From positions 186,001 to 250,000 of the forward strand of contig JBCCIS010000001.1 of assembly GCA_039028155.1 (NCBI GenBank): a stretch of 64,000 nucleotides of DNA, given 5' to 3'. Made by a program: the position numbers and the translations under genes. Origin of the DNA: Pseudomonadota bacterium. GTDB taxonomy: Bacteria > Pseudomonadota > Alphaproteobacteria > SP197. This document shows, in pieces, positions 44,397-61,741 of the stretch. A model generated the notes under the pieces. That model saw nothing but the letters and a program-made list of their open reading frames with translations. It did not search any database and was not told the origin of the DNA. Each line of letters starts with the position of its first letter. The stretch's first letter is position 1.

Positions 44397-45302
44397 TCAA
44401 GATGTCAGCGACCGCCAGCCGCGGCCTTCGTGACCGAAACTGGCGACGGCGGGATGCAGGATTTCGGCCATGATCTCGATTGAATCGACGAGACCGGGAC
44501 CGGGGCGCGTGAAGTAACGGTTGGCGTCGACGGCGACCGCCGGCATGGCAAGCCCTGCCCAAAGCGGTTCGCTGAGCGCGTTGCGGGTTTCCGACGACGC
44601 GCGGTCCAGATCGAAACCGCAGGGCATGAAGACGGCGACATCGGCCTCGGCGGCGGCAATCTCATCGGCGCTCAATAACCGCGCCTTCTCGCCAGGTTGC
44701 GCCAGCACGGGGTCGCCGCCGGCGGCTTCCACGACATCGCTGATCCAATGGCCGGATGCCATCGGCGGATCGCACCACTCGACCGCGAAGACAGGTTTGG
44801 ACGGCTGACCGAACAGAACGCCACGAATGGCACCGATGCGTGCCTCCAGCTCGTCGACAACCAACGCATCACCGCCCAGCGCGGATGCGACCCGGCGCAT
44901 GTCGGCGAAGACATCGCCCAACCGGGCCGGCGACAGCGAGAGGATCTGCGGCCGCTGCCCGGCCATCTCACCGACGACCCGCTCGACCGACGCAAGATCG
45001 ATCGCGCAGGCCGCGCACCGGTCCTGGGTCACTATGTGGGTCGGGCGCAATGCGGCCAGCGCCTCAAGATCGAGATCGTAGAGCGTCAGCGCCCGACGCG
45101 CCCGCTCGCGCACGGTGTGGTCGATCTCGGCGCTTGGCTTCGATGAATCGATGCTGCTCGATGTTAGAACCGCCCGATCACGGATCGAGGCCGGCTGGTC
45201 GCACTCGTGGCTGATCCCGACGATTTGGTCGGCCAGGCCCACGGCCGCGACGATTTCGGTTGCCGCCGGCAGCAGGCAGACGATGCGCAGCGCGCCGGTC
45301 AC
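44397..45302 (-). CDS. BtuF-like cobalamin-binding protein without signal peptide
   Basis: The 301-residue protein has the helical-backbone substrate-binding fold of BtuF. It shows VCLLPAATEIVAAVGLADQIVGIS, the SHECDQP motif and THIVTQDRCAACAID. The start is GTG 45302, overlapping the cobU stop as GTGA. The first residues directly enter the fold core, so no signal peptide exists and the protein should be cytoplasmic unless exported in another way. No BtuC or BtuD gene is adjacent. It may act as a cytoplasmic corrinoid binder rather than as a transporter part; this is inference. Confidence 0.8.
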   Translation of the reverse strand: MTGALRIVCLLPAATEIVAAVGLADQIVGISHECDQPASIRDRAVLTSSSIDSSKPSAEIDHTVRERARRALTLYDLDLEALAALRPTHIVTQDRCAACAIDLASVERVVGEMAGQRPQILSLSPARLGDVFADMRRVASALGGDALVVDELEARIGAIRGVLFGQPSKPVFAVEWCDPPMASGHWISDVVEAAGGDPVLAQPGEKARLLSADEIAAAEADVAVFMPCGFDLDRASSETRNALSEPLWAGLAMPAVAVDANRYFTRPGPGLVDSIEIMAEILHPAVASFGHEGRGWRSLTS

Positions 45303-45868
45303 GAACGGCCCTCGCCCTTGAGCACCTGAGCCAGCCCGGCGGTGACAAAGACGACCTTGCCGGAAAGCGCCGCGACCTGTTGGTGCAGCCGCCCGGCGTG
45401 GTCGCGGAATTCCCGCGCCACCTTGTTGGCGGGCACGATGCCCTGGCCGACTTCGTTCGAGACGACCGTCACGTGGCCACCGATGGTACCGAGTACGCGG
45501 CAGACGGCTTCGGCCTCCTTGATGACATCGCGTTCGGCGGCCATCAGGTTGGCGAGCCACAGCGTCAGGCAGTCGACAAGAACAGCGCGTCCTTCGCCGG
45601 CGTTCTCCTTGAGCGCGCGCGCCAGATCGAGCGGTTCCTCGACGGTCGTCCAGTGTTCGTCGCGCTGGGCCCGGTGCTGGGCGATGCGCCGCTGCATCTC
45701 CTCGTCATGGGCTTCCGCAGTCGCCAGGTAGACCGGCGCCAGACGCGATTCCAGCACGTGGTTTTCCGCCCACAGGCTTTTGCCCGAGCGCGCGCCGCCC
45801 AGCACAAAGGTCACGGCGGCGTTGCCGGCCGCGTCGGGTCGGGGAATATCGGGACGAGGAACACTCAC
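45299..45868 (-). CDS. cobU: Adenosylcobinamide kinase / adenosylcobinamide-phosphate guanylyltransferase
   Basis: The 189-residue bifunctional enzyme (CobU in Salmonella, CobP in Pseudomonas) phosphorylates adenosylcobinamide and then adds GMP. The P-loop FVLGGARSGKSLWAE is near residue 22, and HRAQRDEHWTTVEEP carries the guanylylated His. VDCLTLWLANLM and SNEVGQGIVPAN are family signatures. The start is GTG 45868; a GGAGGGAGG tract lies 14-22 nt upstream. It is the first gene after the cobalamin riboswitch. Confidence 0.94.
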   Translation of the reverse strand: MSVPRPDIPRPDAAGNAAVTFVLGGARSGKSLWAENHVLESRLAPVYLATAEAHDEEMQRRIAQHRAQRDEHWTTVEEPLDLARALKENAGEGRAVLVDCLTLWLANLMAAERDVIKEAEAVCRVLGTIGGHVTVVSNEVGQGIVPANKVAREFRDHAGRLHQQVAALSGKVVFVTAGLAQVLKGEGRS

Positions 45869-45914
45869 CGGGTCGCTTGCCTCCCTCCGAGGTCGTGACT
45901 GGCCCTAGTTGCCG

Positions 45915-46078
45915 CGCGAGGAGGTCTCCTGGCTCCGGGTCACCGGCTGGAAGGCCCCTTCCCGGCTCTCGAAAGAACCAGTGGGATCAAGCCTTCGGCC
46001 TCGCCGTCACAGTTGCGGGGGCAGCGCCGGTCTGGCGGACGGTCCGCGTCACCGGCTTCCCTCTTCTCACGTGCATCG
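45915..46078 (-). ncRNA. Cobalamin (AdoCbl) riboswitch upstream of cobU operon
   Basis: Reading the minus strand from about 46075 to 45920, the conserved blocks appear in order. They are the GGAAGCCGGTGA block (complement of 46049-46060), the GCCCCCGCAACTGT core (46009-46022), GATCCCACTGGTTC (45975-45988), and the 3' B12 box AGCCAGGAGACC (45923-45934). This matches the class I cobalamin riboswitch consensus. It lies 50-200 nt before the cobU GTG. A CCTCC stretch just after the B12 box could pair with the GGAGGGAGG before cobU, so translational repression by B12 is plausible but inferred. Confidence 0.92.
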
Positions 46079-46107
46079 ACGAACCTAGCAGACGATAGGG
46101 GCGAGCG

Positions 46108-46749
46108 CTATGCCGGTTGTCCGAGGATCAAGTCACCGGCCGGCGGCCGGTTCATCCAGGTGACACACCAGGTCGGCGGGTGTCCGCCGGACGCCGCGTG
46201 GTGGTCAAGGCGGGTCAAAGAGAGGTTCTCGGTCGCGAACTTCAACGCGTCTTCGGGCGTCAGCTCGAGCGCGACGCCAAGGGCCGCGCGAATGCTGCCG
46301 CCGTGCGCCACGGCGATGATGTCGCGGCCCGCATTCTCGTCGGTCAGGCGGTGGATCACGCGGCTGACCCGGATCGTGAGATCGGCGAAACTCTCACCGT
46401 CCGGCGGGCGGTGAGTCGCCGGCGCCAGCCAGAACCGATGGCTGTCGGCAAAGGCGTTAACCTCGTCATACGTCAGGCCGTGCCAGGCGCCGAAGCTCTG
46501 TTCACCGAGATCGGGCTCCTCGAGCGGCGCGATCTGGCGGCCGCCGGCCTTAGCGATCGCGGCGGCCGTCTGTTTGGTGCGCTTCAGGTGGCTGGTTACC
46601 CAGACGGCGTCGTCGGGCAGCATGGCGTCGAGTGCGCGATACGCCTCCGGACTTTCGATCGTGGCGTTGGGATCGGTGGCGCCGTAAATGCGACCGTTGG
46701 TCTCGGTTACCGGCGCGTGGCGGATCCACCACCAACGGGTGACGGTCAT
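46108..46749 (-). CDS. cobC: Histidine phosphatase, probable alpha-ribazole-5'-phosphate phosphatase
   Basis: The 213-residue phosphoglycerate-mutase-like phosphatase has the catalytic RHA motif (R10-H11) at WWWIRHAPVTETNGRIYG, the LKRTKQTAAAI stretch, EPDLGEQSFGAWHG and the second His in AVAHGGSIRAALG. The family removes phosphate late in nucleotide loop assembly. Its coupling to cobS (ATGA overlap) supports the CobC role; the substrate is not proven by motifs alone. It lies just upstream of the riboswitch element but ends before it. Confidence 0.88.
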   Translation of the reverse strand: MTVTRWWWIRHAPVTETNGRIYGATDPNATIESPEAYRALDAMLPDDAVWVTSHLKRTKQTAAAIAKAGGRQIAPLEEPDLGEQSFGAWHGLTYDEVNAFADSHRFWLAPATHRPPDGESFADLTIRVSRVIHRLTDENAGRDIIAVAHGGSIRAALGVALELTPEDALKFATENLSLTRLDHHAASGGHPPTWCVTWMNRPPAGDLILGQPA

Positions 46750-47525
46750 GTCACCATCGCCACGGCGACCAGGACCGCGATCTCGGTCGCCTGCTGCATG
46801 GCGCCCAAAACGTCGCCGGTCTGACCACCGATCTGCCGGCCGGCGACATAGATGACGACCGCCGCCGCAGCCGTGGCCAGAAGGAGCGCCAGCACCCAGG
46901 TCCAGGGCAGCAGCAGGACGAGCGTCAAGAGCGCGGCGATACCCAGCGCCATGATCGTCGCTTCGAAGCCAGGCGTGCCGGCGTCAGCGCCAAGGCCGTC
47001 GGTTCGCGCCCTGGGCATCATGCGCATGGCGACCACGAGCACCGCGCGCGACACCGCGCCCGCGGCGATCAGCGTCGCCAGCACTTCATAGGGATTGCCG
47101 ATGCCAGCCAGGGCACCGATGCGCGCGGCGATGACCAGCACCAGAGCGATCACGCCGTAGCTGCCGATCCGGCTGTCGCGCATGATATCGAGCTTCGACT
47201 CGCGGTCGCCGCCGCCGCCGAACCCATCGGCGACGTCGGCCAGGCCATCCTCGTGCAACGCGCCGGTGATCAAGACCGCCGCGCCGACCGCCATGCAGGC
47301 GGCGAGCCACGGTCCGGTGCCAAGGCCGTGCGCGATGACGTAGACGACGCCCGCCGCCAGGCCGACAACAGCGCCGACGATCGGGAACAAGGCAGCCGCC
47401 TGGGCCAGGGGTGCCGACACGCCGCGACCACCCACCGGCAGGCGGGTCAGAAAGCCAAACGCCAGACGCAGCCGGTCGATCCAGTCGAGATCGGTATCGT
47501 GCTGCCCGCTATCATCGTGGGACAT
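46746..47525 (-). CDS. cobS: Adenosylcobinamide-GDP ribazoletransferase (cobalamin synthase CobS/CobV)
   Basis: The 259-residue multi-spanning membrane enzyme joins adenosylcobinamide-GDP to alpha-ribazole. The motif HEDGLADVADGFGGGGDRESKLDIMRDSRIGSYG (47235 down to 47155) carries the acidic active-site residues. Five to seven hydrophobic segments are visible. It starts at ATG 47525 and overlaps cobC. The name here follows the Salmonella convention and is not the CobS chelatase subunit. Its 5' end faces the repeat element before cobT. Confidence 0.94.
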   Translation of the reverse strand: MSHDDSGQHDTDLDWIDRLRLAFGFLTRLPVGGRGVSAPLAQAAALFPIVGAVVGLAAGVVYVIAHGLGTGPWLAACMAVGAAVLITGALHEDGLADVADGFGGGGDRESKLDIMRDSRIGSYGVIALVLVIAARIGALAGIGNPYEVLATLIAAGAVSRAVLVVAMRMMPRARTDGLGADAGTPGFEATIMALGIAALLTLVLLLPWTWVLALLLATAAAAVVIYVAGRQIGGQTGDVLGAMQQATEIAVLVAVAMVT

Positions 47526-47600
47526 GAGCGATCTAGGGTTGCGTTGCAGGACGTTCTCGTGCTTATCCCGCGCCCTCCCCTAGCCGTCAAGGCAAGTCCT

Positions 47601-47735
47601 GGAGCAGATCTCATGTTGATTGAATCGCTTGGCGATTCAGCCAATGTGAGTGAATCTGCTCCATGCATTGATAGAGAGCGGATTCACGTCTTCTGGTGGA
47701 ACCGTTCAACGGTCCCACCAGAAGACGATCCGCTC
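47601..47735. repeat. Two-hairpin dispersed repeat R1, copy a
   Basis: Two palindromes lie side by side. Hairpin 2 has outer arms GGAGCAGAT (47601-47609) and ATCTGCTCC (47654-47662). Hairpin 1 has outer arms GAGCGGAT (47676-47683) and ATCCGCTC (47728-47735), an inner 12-bp perfect stem (47688-47699 and 47714?-47725) and a 5-bp tip ACCGT/ACGGT. The hairpin order is opposite to copies b and c, so this copy is inverted. Its last base touches the cobT start codon. Confidence 0.85.
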
Positions 47736-48746
47736 ATGATGCCAACATCCTTCGACGATATCCGCGCCTTGATGGCGGATTTGCCCCAACCCGATACCGG
47801 CGCCCTTAAAGCCGCCGAGACACGCGACGCGGTGCTGACCAAACCACCGGGCGCGTTGGGCAAGCTGGAGACGATCGCGCGCTGGCTGGCCGGCTGGCAG
47901 GGCCATCCGCCGCGCGCCGACAAGCCGGCGATCCTGGTCTTTGCCGGCAACCACGGCGTGACGGCCCAGGGCATCTCGGCGTTTCCCGCTGATGTGACGC
48001 ACCAGATGGTGGCGAACTTCGAGTCGGGCGGCGCGGCGATCAACCAGCTCGCCAGGCGCGCCGGCGCCAGCCTGTCGGTCACCGCGCTGGATCTGGACCG
48101 ACCGACCGGCGACTTCACCCAGGGCCCTGCCATGGACGAGGCGGCGACCGTCGACGCCTTCGTCACCGGTATGGCGGCTATTGGCGAGGCCGATATCGTG
48201 ATCCCCGGCGACATGGGTATCGGCAACACCACGGTTTCGGCGGCGCTCGCGGCGGCCCTTTTGGGCGGCAGCGGCGCCGATTGGGCGGGGCCGGGCACTG
48301 GCCTGGACGCCGCTGGTGTCAGCCACAAGGCCGCTGTCATCGATCGGGCCCTCGCCTTCCACGGCGACACGCTGAAGGATCCTTTGATCGCGCTGGCAAG
48401 CGTCGGCGGTCGCGAGCAGGCCGCCATCGCCGGCGCGATCCTGGCCGCGCGGCTGAACCGGGTCCCGGTCATCCTGGACGGCTATGTCGCGACCGCCAGC
48501 GCGGCGGTCCTGAAGCAACTGCGCGACGACGCGCTCGATCACTGCCTGCTCGGCCATCTGAGCGCCGAACATGGCCACGGCCCGCTCGCCGAGAAACTTG
48601 GTCTGGACCCCGTCCTCGATCTGGGCATGCGCCTGGGCGAAGGCTCCGGCGCGGCGGTCGCGCTCCTGACCGTCCAGGCTGCCGCCGATTGCCACAACGG
48701 CATGGCGACCTTCGCCGAAGCCGGGGTCAGTGGAAAAAGCGACTGA
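47736..48746 (+). CDS. cobT: Nicotinate-nucleotide-dimethylbenzimidazole phosphoribosyltransferase
   Basis: The 336-residue enzyme makes alpha-ribazole phosphate for the lower ligand of B12. Signatures include LTKPPGALGKLETIARWLAG near the N-terminus, VFAGNHGVTAQGISAFP, GDMGIGNTTVSAALAAALLG and the C-terminal LGMRLGEGSGAAVALL with the catalytic Glu region. ATG 47736 (or the adjacent ATG 47739) follows directly after repeat R1-a, and no Shine-Dalgarno sequence is seen outside the repeat. An internal ATG at 47772 would shorten the conserved N-terminus. Confidence 0.93.
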   Translation: MMPTSFDDIRALMADLPQPDTGALKAAETRDAVLTKPPGALGKLETIARWLAGWQGHPPRADKPAILVFAGNHGVTAQGISAFPADVTHQMVANFESGGAAINQLARRAGASLSVTALDLDRPTGDFTQGPAMDEAATVDAFVTGMAAIGEADIVIPGDMGIGNTTVSAALAAALLGGSGADWAGPGTGLDAAGVSHKAAVIDRALAFHGDTLKDPLIALASVGGREQAAIAGAILAARLNRVPVILDGYVATASAAVLKQLRDDALDHCLLGHLSAEHGHGPLAEKLGLDPVLDLGMRLGEGSGAAVALLTVQAAADCHNGMATFAEAGVSGKSD

Positions 48747-49283: not shown

Positions 49284-49421
49284 GAGAGCGGGTCATGGTT
49301 CGGTGGAACCTTCTGGCGGTTCAATCGAACCATATGAATCCGTTCTCCATTCAAAACGTAGAGCAGGTTCACCTGCCTTGACGGAAACGCGGAGCGATAC
49401 CACCAAGCCGGGACCTGCTCT
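49284..49421. repeat. Two-hairpin dispersed repeat R1, copy b
   Basis: Hairpin 1 runs from GAGCGG (49286-49291) to CCGTTCTC (49340-49347), with inner arms ATGGTTCG (49295-49302) and CGAACCAT (49326-49333). Hairpin 2 has arms GAGCAGGT (49361-49368) and ACCTGCTC (49413-49420). The outer arm sequences match copies a and c, while the inner arms differ but stay complementary. It covers the gap between mmcB and the permease and also the first ~40 codons of the permease frame. Confidence 0.8.
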
Positions 49422-50619
49422 AAGGCGGCGCCTGGGTTTCTGGCTACTGACGCTCTATGGCCTCGGCGTCACCATCGGCGCCGGGATCTACGTGCTGATC
49501 GGCAAGGTCGCGGGCGAAACCGGCGCCCTGATGCCGTTGGCGTTCCTGGCCGCCGCCGTCCTGGCCGGCCTGACCGCGCTGTCGTTCGCCGAACTCGCGG
49601 CGCGGTTTCCCAGAAGCGCCGGCGAGGCGATCTATATCCGCGAGGGGTTCGGCTCCAAGGCCCTGTCGCTGATCGCCGGCCTGGCGGTCGCCCTGGTCGG
49701 CATGGTGTCGTCAGCTGCCATCGCCATCGGCGCCGCCGGCTACATCGGCGAGATCGTGCCGCTGCCGCGCTGGGCCTTGATCACCATCGTCATTGTCGCA
49801 CTGACCGCGCTGGCGTGCTGGGGCATCAAGGAATCGGTGCTGGTCGCCGGCATCGTGACCGTCCTGGAGATCGCCGGCCTGCTCTTGGTCGTCGGCGTCG
49901 CGCTGCCTGAGTTTTCCGAACTCGGCAATAACCTTACCGTCGCCACGCCCGGCGACGGCTTCGTCTGGGCCGGCTTCATGGGCGCCATGATGCTCGCCTT
50001 CTTCGCCTTTGTCGGCTTCGAGGACATGGTCAACGTGATCGAGGAGGTGAAGGAACCGCGCCGTATCATGCCCTATGCCATCATCGCGACGCTGATCGGC
50101 TCGACCGTGATCTATGTCCTCGTTGCGCTGGCCGCGCTGGCCGTCGTGCCGCCGGCGGAGCTTGCGGCAAGCGACGCGCCACTGGCGCTTGTTTACGAAA
50201 AGGCGAGCGGCGTGTCGCCCGTCCTCTTGATCGCGATCGCCAGCTTCGCCACGTTAAATGGTATTGTGATTCAGACCGTCATGGCGTCTCGCGTTCTCTA
50301 CGGGTTGAGCTGGCAGGGCTCGATCCCCGCGGTTTTTTGCCGCATCAACCCGCGCACCCACACTCCGATCATCGCGACGGTCAGCGTCGGGGCCTTGATC
50401 TTGGTCATGGCGCTCGCGCTGCCCATCGAGGCACTCGCCGAAGCGACGGCCTTGATCGTGCTGGCCATCTTCACCGCCGTGAACCTGGCGCTTGGCCTGA
50501 TCAAACGGCGCGATCCGGTCGGCCCGTCAAGCTTCGCCGTGCCCGCTTTCTGGCCCTGGCTCGCCTTTGCGGTCAGCCTGGCAATCCTCACTGCTGACGC
50601 GGCTAGGCGGCTTCTATGA
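49303..50619 (+). CDS. APC-superfamily amino acid permease
   Basis: The transporter has about 12 hydrophobic segments from residue 45 onward. It shows the APC first-helix motif GLGVTIGAGIYVLIGKVAGETG, then FAELAARFPRSAGEAIYIREGFG, and FFAFVGFEDMVNVIEEVKEPRRIMP. Substrate is unknown, probably a cationic or small neutral amino acid. The N-terminus is unusual. No ATG lies before the first helix. The only start choices are GTG 49303 (438 residues) and TTG 49378 (413 residues), and both are inside repeat R1-b. The first 25-40 residues are therefore repeat-derived and may not be translated from the upstream start. Confidence 0.85.
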   Translation: MEPSGGSIEPYESVLHSKRRAGSPALTETRSDTTKPGPALRRRLGFWLLTLYGLGVTIGAGIYVLIGKVAGETGALMPLAFLAAAVLAGLTALSFAELAARFPRSAGEAIYIREGFGSKALSLIAGLAVALVGMVSSAAIAIGAAGYIGEIVPLPRWALITIVIVALTALACWGIKESVLVAGIVTVLEIAGLLLVVGVALPEFSELGNNLTVATPGDGFVWAGFMGAMMLAFFAFVGFEDMVNVIEEVKEPRRIMPYAIIATLIGSTVIYVLVALAALAVVPPAELAASDAPLALVYEKASGVSPVLLIAIASFATLNGIVIQTVMASRVLYGLSWQGSIPAVFCRINPRTHTPIIATVSVGALILVMALALPIEALAEATALIVLAIFTAVNLALGLIKRRDPVGPSSFAVPAFWPWLAFAVSLAILTADAARRLL

Positions 50620-57540: not shown

Positions 57541-57645
57541 ACCGGCCCACGCCCCCTCCCTCCGGGGCAAAACGCCGAGAGGCGTTTTCGCCGAGGCCAC
57601 CCCGAGGATGCTGCCATGGGTGGCCGGGAGGGGGCGTGGGCCGGT
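57541..57645. repeat. Palindromic repeat R2, copy 1 (three nested stems)
   Basis: A 20-bp perfect inverted repeat (57541-57560 with 57626-57645) encloses two smaller hairpins. Hairpin a has AAAACGCC (57569-57576) and GGCGTTTT (57581-57588). Hairpin b has GGCCACCC (57595-57602) and GGGTGGCC (57618-57625) with the 15-nt loop CGAGGATGCTGCCAT. It could form a cruciform or an RNA three-way junction and may act as a terminator between the two minus-strand genes. Confidence 0.85.
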
Positions 57646-60800: not shown

Positions 60801-60875
60801 GGCCACCCCGAGGATGCTGACATGGGTGGCCTCGACGAAAACGCCTCTCGGCGTTTTGCCCCGGAGGCGGGGGAG
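60801..60875. repeat. Palindromic repeat R2, copy 2
   Basis: Hairpin b has GGCCACCC (60801-60808) and GGGTGGCC (60824-60831), with loop CGAGGATGCTGACAT. Hairpin a has AAAACGCC (60838-60845) and GGCGTTTT (60850-60857). The order of hairpins is reversed relative to copy 1, and the flanking arms are only imperfectly complementary. It lies between two convergent genes, where it may act as a bidirectional terminator. Confidence 0.82.
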
Positions 60876-61606: not shown

Positions 61607-61741
61607 GAGCGGATCATGGTTAGCCGGAACCGCTTGACGGTTCCAGCTAACCATTTGAATCCGCTCTTTATCTAGGAGTAGAGCAGATTCACCTGTTTTG
61701 ATTTCATCGCGAAGCGATTCCATCAAATCAGGATCTGCTCT
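61607..61741. repeat. Two-hairpin dispersed repeat R1, copy c
   Basis: Hairpin 1 has outer arms GAGCGGAT (61607-61614) and ATCCGCTC (61659-61666), inner arms ATGGTTAGC (61616-61624) and GCTAACCAT (61646-61654), and a tip GGAACCG/CGGTTCC. Hairpin 2 has arms GAGCAGAT (61681-61688) and ATCTGCTC (61733-61740) with further internal pairing (ATCGC/GCGAT). It lies in the divergent gap before the aminotransferase gene, 43 nt from its start. Confidence 0.87.

Follow-up and report, generated by a model that had tools for sequence, protein, structure and literature searches.

Sequence comparison makes it close to certain that a mobile element has inserted exactly at the start of cobT in the 64,000-nt stretch of DNA analysed here (hereafter the window). 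In the account that we consider the best, to which we give not quite an even chance, this 134-nt TA-targeting miniature element with two hairpins split the conserved cobT ATG from the leader of the gene, so that the native Shine-Dalgarno (SD) sequence no longer adjoins that ATG and a hairpin arm stands in its place. The working start would then have moved to ATG 47613 in the first hairpin, from which the frame is open through the element, and CobT would have gained an element-encoded N-terminal extension of 41 residues (predicted peptide MLIESLGDSANVSESAPCIDR). This relocation is slightly favoured over continued use of the native start at 47736, with hairpin processing or without an SD. Coordinates of the features are given in Table 1.

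Table 1. Features of the cobT region and of the other element copies in the window.
Feature	Position	Strand	Basis or remark
Promoter-like cobS site, TTGACG-N17-GATAAG	47562..47590	-	Undisturbed by the insertion, which lies about 10 bp away
End of ancestral cobT leader with SD-like AAGGCAAG	47586..47599	+	Aligned to the empty site of the sister genome (G001)
Candidate new start: GGAG 47601-47604, 8 nt, ATG 47613-47615	47601..47615	+	In frame with cobT
Whole composite (A-type hairpin, linker, G-type hairpin)	47602..47735	+	Profile match, model positions 1-134, E 2e-33 (to be read knowing that this copy is among those used to build the profile)
A-type hairpin, GAGCAGATTCAC...ATCTGCTC on the minus strand	47602..47661	-	Pattern and folding
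14-nt linker	47662..47675	+	Sequence
G-type hairpin, the one first reported; 3' arm adjoins cobT upstream	47676..47735	+	Sequence, folding and pattern
cobT, conserved native start ATG 47736	47736..48746	+	SD now -1.0 kcal/mol
Third copy in the window, more diverged, common to both species	49286..49420	-	Profile search
Amino-acid permease, candidate start TTG 49378 within the element	49378..50619	+	SD -5.8 kcal/mol
Second copy, TA on both sides	61607..61740	-	Sister: one TA, without the element

The initial annotation described a long, near-perfect hairpin of 60 nt at 47676-47735, with the cobT ATG following its 3' arm without any spacer. The sequence confirms the junction (arm end at 47735, ATG at 47736), and sequence and folding together confirm the hairpin, which has 26 bp arranged as 8 + 13 + 5 bp, interrupted by a TCA bulge of 3 nt and a single 1x1 mismatch and closed by a loop of 3 nt. 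Folding of positions 47590-47790 gave -105.7 kcal/mol (z = -10.6), and none of 200 shuffled sequences folded equally well. This hairpin forms the right-hand half of a composite of 134 nt, in which two 60-nt hairpins stand head to head with the linker between them. An intrinsic terminator (a T run after a stem) was searched for in 47400-47850 and none was found. The only known RNA family reaching its gathering score in the window was a cobalamin riboswitch on the minus strand (45902-46104). It lies downstream of a histidine-phosphatase-like gene (46108-46749) and upstream of a gene at 45299-45868, both read by eye, and not before cobS or cobT. The window also holds a separate repeat (57553-57625 and 60801-60873), with 94% similarity between its inverted arms and 97% between its direct copies, which lie some 3.2 kb from each other.

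The element belongs to an abundant family. A strict pattern (GAGCRGATTCA-N20..50-ATCYGCTC) matched 77 hairpins in the genome carrying the window, against none for the reversed-pattern control, and 116 in the only congener listed (hereafter the sister genome). The 14 other genomes of the taxonomic family had 0 to 31 matches and 45 genomes outside it had none. In a larger draw of 385 genomes of the class, 11 had at least one hairpin: our own genome, two of the family and eight from outside it, several of them with a single match. The outer part of the hairpin sequence thus turns up again in distant families, where the inner stem is different. A looser pattern found four matches in the window and none in 100 shuffles; together with the genome matches set against the reversed pattern, this indicates that the hairpin pattern is not due to chance. 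A slightly looser pattern recovered the partner hairpin for 34 of the 77 strict matches in our genome; for the remaining 43, the inner end of the partner was present with at most three mismatches in 37 and not in six. The 77 hairpins were treated as 61 composites. The 18 inner pairs were canonical in 87% of cases across 63 distinct hairpins of 60 nt; 300 shufflings of the 3' halves gave a mean of 71% and a maximum of 75%. This control mixes two subtypes and ignores relatedness and so overstates the support for pairing; the outer eight pairs are fixed by the strict pattern and hence uninformative. A profile search of 1.65 Mb retrieved 37 copies, 22 of them near full length. In these 22, GANTC sites reach 18.6 per kb as compared with 1.6 per kb in the 1.65 Mb (about 11 times), an enrichment that arises partly by choice, since the strict pattern collecting the training copies includes one GATTC.

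The initial annotation had proposed that the element inserted next to cobT, and a comparison with a relative lacking it upholds this: the cobS-cobT gap of the sister genome is an empty site. It reads ...CAAGGCAGGGTCC/ATGAAGCC, where our genome has ...CAAGGCAAGTCC/TG(element)/ATGATGCC. The element is missing there, and the same cobT ATG stands directly behind a strong SD, so that the insertion is specific to our lineage. Among 106 cobT loci examined by profile search (26 + 80, some genomes being represented twice), an element lies directly before cobT only in our own locus. In another genus, the same gap upstream of cobT (L035) holds what by eye may be a decayed similar hairpin, for which the profile search gave no match.

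Other copies have also moved. The copy at 61607 is absent from the sister genome, where a single TA stands in place of the TA on both sides of the filled site. Conversely, 40 loci of the sister genome were taken and eight copies could be placed on the examined part of ours: four sites were empty with a small gap (L103, L114, L118 and L123), one was filled in both genomes (L119) and three were partial or unclear (L122, L125 and L132). The filled counterparts of three of these four empty sites carry GA instead of TA at the left flank. TA flanks the A side of 40 of our 61 copies, the G side of 35 and both sides of 23. At the cobT copy, flanked by TG on the left and AT on the right, a clean target duplication was not recognisable.

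Candidate sources of mobility were considered in turn. No Y1 transposase (PF01797) was detected in our genome, for which reason a RAYT-driven REPIN was rejected; among 16 family genomes the only Y1 transposase is in one (G004) with no strict-pattern hairpins. An IS630-type source was likewise rejected, with no DDE_3 transposase in our genome or the sister genome and one in a genome of another genus (G002). A longer autonomous relative with the same ends was not found either, no pair of outer ends lying 200-3500 nt apart in 1.65 Mb searched with exact motifs.

By analogy, the closest known kinds appear to be the alphaproteobacterial CIR elements (Caulobacter CcrM-associated intergenic repeats) and TA-target MITEs. 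CIR elements, in the part of PMC2229807 consulted, share with our element two long inverted-repeat arms and a linker, a location mostly between genes and an alphaproteobacterial host, and GANTC likewise lies inside the element. In contrast, our element measures 134 nt rather than about 110 nt (compared by description), it also has GANTC at the bulge at the stem base, and one of its frames is usually open (39 of 61 copies), whereas the consulted part of PMC2229807 gives, as an unpublished observation, stops in all six frames of CIR. The RAMA domain, the only part of CcrM searched for, was not found in our genome or the sister genome, with a positive Caulobacter control. Like TA-target MITEs (RUP/IS630 type), our element is small and dispersed and has terminal repeats; many of its filled sites are bordered by TA on either side, and the 61607 empty site has one TA. 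The differences are two separate hairpins instead of one end-to-end hairpin and the lack of a DDE_3 transposase in both genomes. REPINs and REP dimers also consist of two head-to-head palindromes in high copy number that often touch stop codons. However, each palindrome here has 60 nt and about 26 bp, compared with the 20-40 bp of REPs and the 8-9 bp stem with a CGTC tag of CGTC REPs (both from the portion of PMC3733652 consulted), and the Y1 transposase of a REPIN with RAYT is missing from our genome. Rickettsia palindromic elements, according to the portions of PMC2229807 and PMC3733652 consulted, are similarly palindromic repeats that can be read in frame as part of proteins, N-termini included; unlike them, as far as descriptions can be compared, our element is mainly intergenic. 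A search of the open-licence literature with sequence words of the element gave no published description among the matches listed; one match, in PMC2817692, concerned a Pseudomonas REP, from the part of that paper seen. A search of the same literature for start codons supplied by such elements gave unrelated papers only.

The gene behind the element was identified as cobT, a vitamin B12 gene, by TIGR03160 (359.4 bits, cut-off 319.3) and Pfam DBI_PRT, and the sister and family homologues align at the native start, 47736. Initiation at 47772, which the initial annotation had raised, was not supported: its SD is 0.3 kcal/mol and it lies downstream of the aligned homologue starts. The ribosome-binding region of cobT does fall within the hairpin, as had been claimed, the 3' arm being the region just upstream of the ATG. 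At this ATG the SD amounts to -8.1 kcal/mol in the sister and to -1.0 kcal/mol in our genome, where 89% of 975 ATG-start genes have one at least as strong; it is the weakest among 15 family cobT starts. By alignment, the insertion removed the native SD of cobT, and the SD-like AAGGCAAG of the ancestral leader has been moved away from the ATG by 134 nt plus flank. For an mRNA whose 5' end lies at 47560-47600, opening the region from -20 to +15 of 47736 is predicted to take about 31-32 kcal/mol. The corresponding values in the sister are 19-21 kcal/mol with leaders of 20-60 nt and 8.7 kcal/mol with a 12-nt leader, and 60 genes of the window with 40-nt leaders require 16.8 ± 5.6 kcal/mol (maximum 30.2). 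The earlier proposal that the element limits translation from 47736 thus agrees with computation, in which the loss of the SD and the opening cost amount to a predicted penalty at this start.

Several observations are consistent with the relocation of the start to 47613, an option beyond those listed in the initial annotation. The cobT frame is open through the element back to this codon, the first in-frame ATG, and the SD there reaches -5.6 kcal/mol, near the median (48% of 975 genes have one at least as strong). The first base of the GGAG at 47601-47604 belongs to the flank; the motif owes its existence to a left flank of TG, seen in one of 61 copies, the cobT copy. The order of transcription may also matter: the SD and ATG of 47613 would be transcribed ahead of the arm that covers them, whereas the region before 47736, being itself a 3' arm, would be able to pair at once during co-transcriptional folding. 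ATG 47613 is nevertheless predicted to lie in a stem, with an opening cost of 33.7 kcal/mol for a 5' end at 47590 and 24.7 kcal/mol for one at 47600. The cobT frame is the usual open frame of the element in this orientation, each of the other five being open in 0-5 of the 61 copies; as a property of the family, the open frame is weak evidence of selection at cobT. The hexamer coding score of the 41 extension codons is -6.4, compared with +9.3 for the next 41, and lower than all but one of 451 gene windows. Such non-coding hexamer use argues against a long coding history, and a recent insertion would give the same score. The native ATG 47736, present and conserved, also speaks against relocation.

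Its conserved position among homologues is one point in favour of the main alternative, in which cobT still starts at 47736. Either the hairpin would be cleaved, for example by RNase III, or melted, or initiation would not depend on an SD, and the element would mainly lower or tune expression. We regard this as a real possibility, a step further below an even chance than relocation. Many cobT genes of the family have a weak SD, 10 of the 14 other loci being weaker than -5 kcal/mol and two loci without any element having -1.7 kcal/mol, which favours SD-independent initiation and weakens the case for a relocated start. The opening cost at 47736 does not exceed 5.5 kcal/mol if the 5' end of the mRNA lies at or after 47700, and a precedent exists in the Correia elements, whose mRNA hairpins are cut by RNase III according to the parts of PMC10969869 and PMC2229807 consulted. 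This alternative has to accommodate the lost SD and an intact leader that is predicted to be very closed.

Transcription starting inside or just after the element, which would yield a leaderless or very short-leader cobT mRNA, appears improbable. It would remove the fold and leave an opening cost of 2.0-5.5 kcal/mol (5' ends from 47700 to 47736). However, the upstream leader is conserved with the sister, and a stricter consensus scan of 47400-47850 found no sigma-70-like site, a scan that leaves other promoter types outside its reach and also missed the conserved cobS site. The promoter-like cobS pattern occurs in 11 of the 16 cobT loci examined, our own and the sister locus included. Silencing of cobT by the element, with the gene being lost, would fit the predicted loss of the ribosome site and is very unlikely, as the frame is intact, the TIGR03160 score exceeds the cut-off and dN/dS is 0.17 for cobT, close to the 0.13 of cobS (0.09 for the MmcB-like gene), values that average the whole time since the split, so that a very recent relaxation could escape them. 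From its dN/dS, cobT appears to be under selection and so is probably still expressed.

The position of the element at cobT is unusual for the family. Gene calls for copy placement came from an ad hoc hexamer gene finder, and all starts are predictions. Of the 61 composites of our genome, 28 lie between co-oriented, 17 between divergent and 10 between convergent genes; five overlap a predicted gene and one lies at an edge. Distances to gene ends are exactly -1 in 18 of 49 cases in our genome; in these 18 cases the flanking TA, followed by the first G of the element, forms the TAG stop. Copies overlapping predicted genes (five in our genome, two in the sister) were left out of the lists of start distances, which comprise 62 values in our genome and 38 in the sister. 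The value for cobT is 0, and all the others are at least 11 nt. Extrapolating the density at 11-60 nt to the range of 0-10 nt gives an expectation of about 10.6; one or none has P = 0.0003, or P = 0.007 when non-independence is allowed for by discounting a third of the sites. TA is not rarer within 0-10 nt upstream of starts (1284 genes). The start distances from the profile search also include 9 nt for a decayed copy, -25 for a mis-extended one and -43 for that at the permease gene. Two apparent gene starts inside the element (L146 and L169) were rejected as over-extended or decayed copies, and a sister locus (L132) has several possible gene starts.

The permease copy, two genes downstream of cobT, suggests that a start has moved into the element before. 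This copy (49286-49420), present in the two species alike, lies over the position of the native permease start. TTG 49378, inside the element, is the only ATG, GTG or TTG start common to our genome and the sister, GTG 49303 being present in our genome only. In other genera of the family, all six permease homologues have an ATG 9-10 codons before a conserved L-R/Q/H-RRLG block, two of them (L312 and L313) with stops inside the matched gene. At a further locus (L085, 1686-1820 of contig C52 of our genome), the downstream gene, which looks TPR-like on a reading of its sequence, has its only in-frame ATG, GTG or TTG in the linker of the element. The SD of this codon is poor (0.4 kcal/mol), and a rarer start codon such as CTG is possible there; in the sister, an ATG is present and the element absent. 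The L085 gene, cobT and, in two species, the permease are candidate start fusions. On this reading the family might act as a portable translation-start cassette: a copy landing at the 5' end of a gene would bring a new start codon, an open frame and sometimes an SD, and the fusions would be retained, an idea that we hold as doubtful.

At cobT, a stable mobile hairpin has landed exactly on a start codon, and the two species provide a natural pair with and without it. The locus offers a testable case of a gene that either tolerates a closed ribosome site or shifts its start into a mobile element. Near such repeats, automatic start calls may be wrong.
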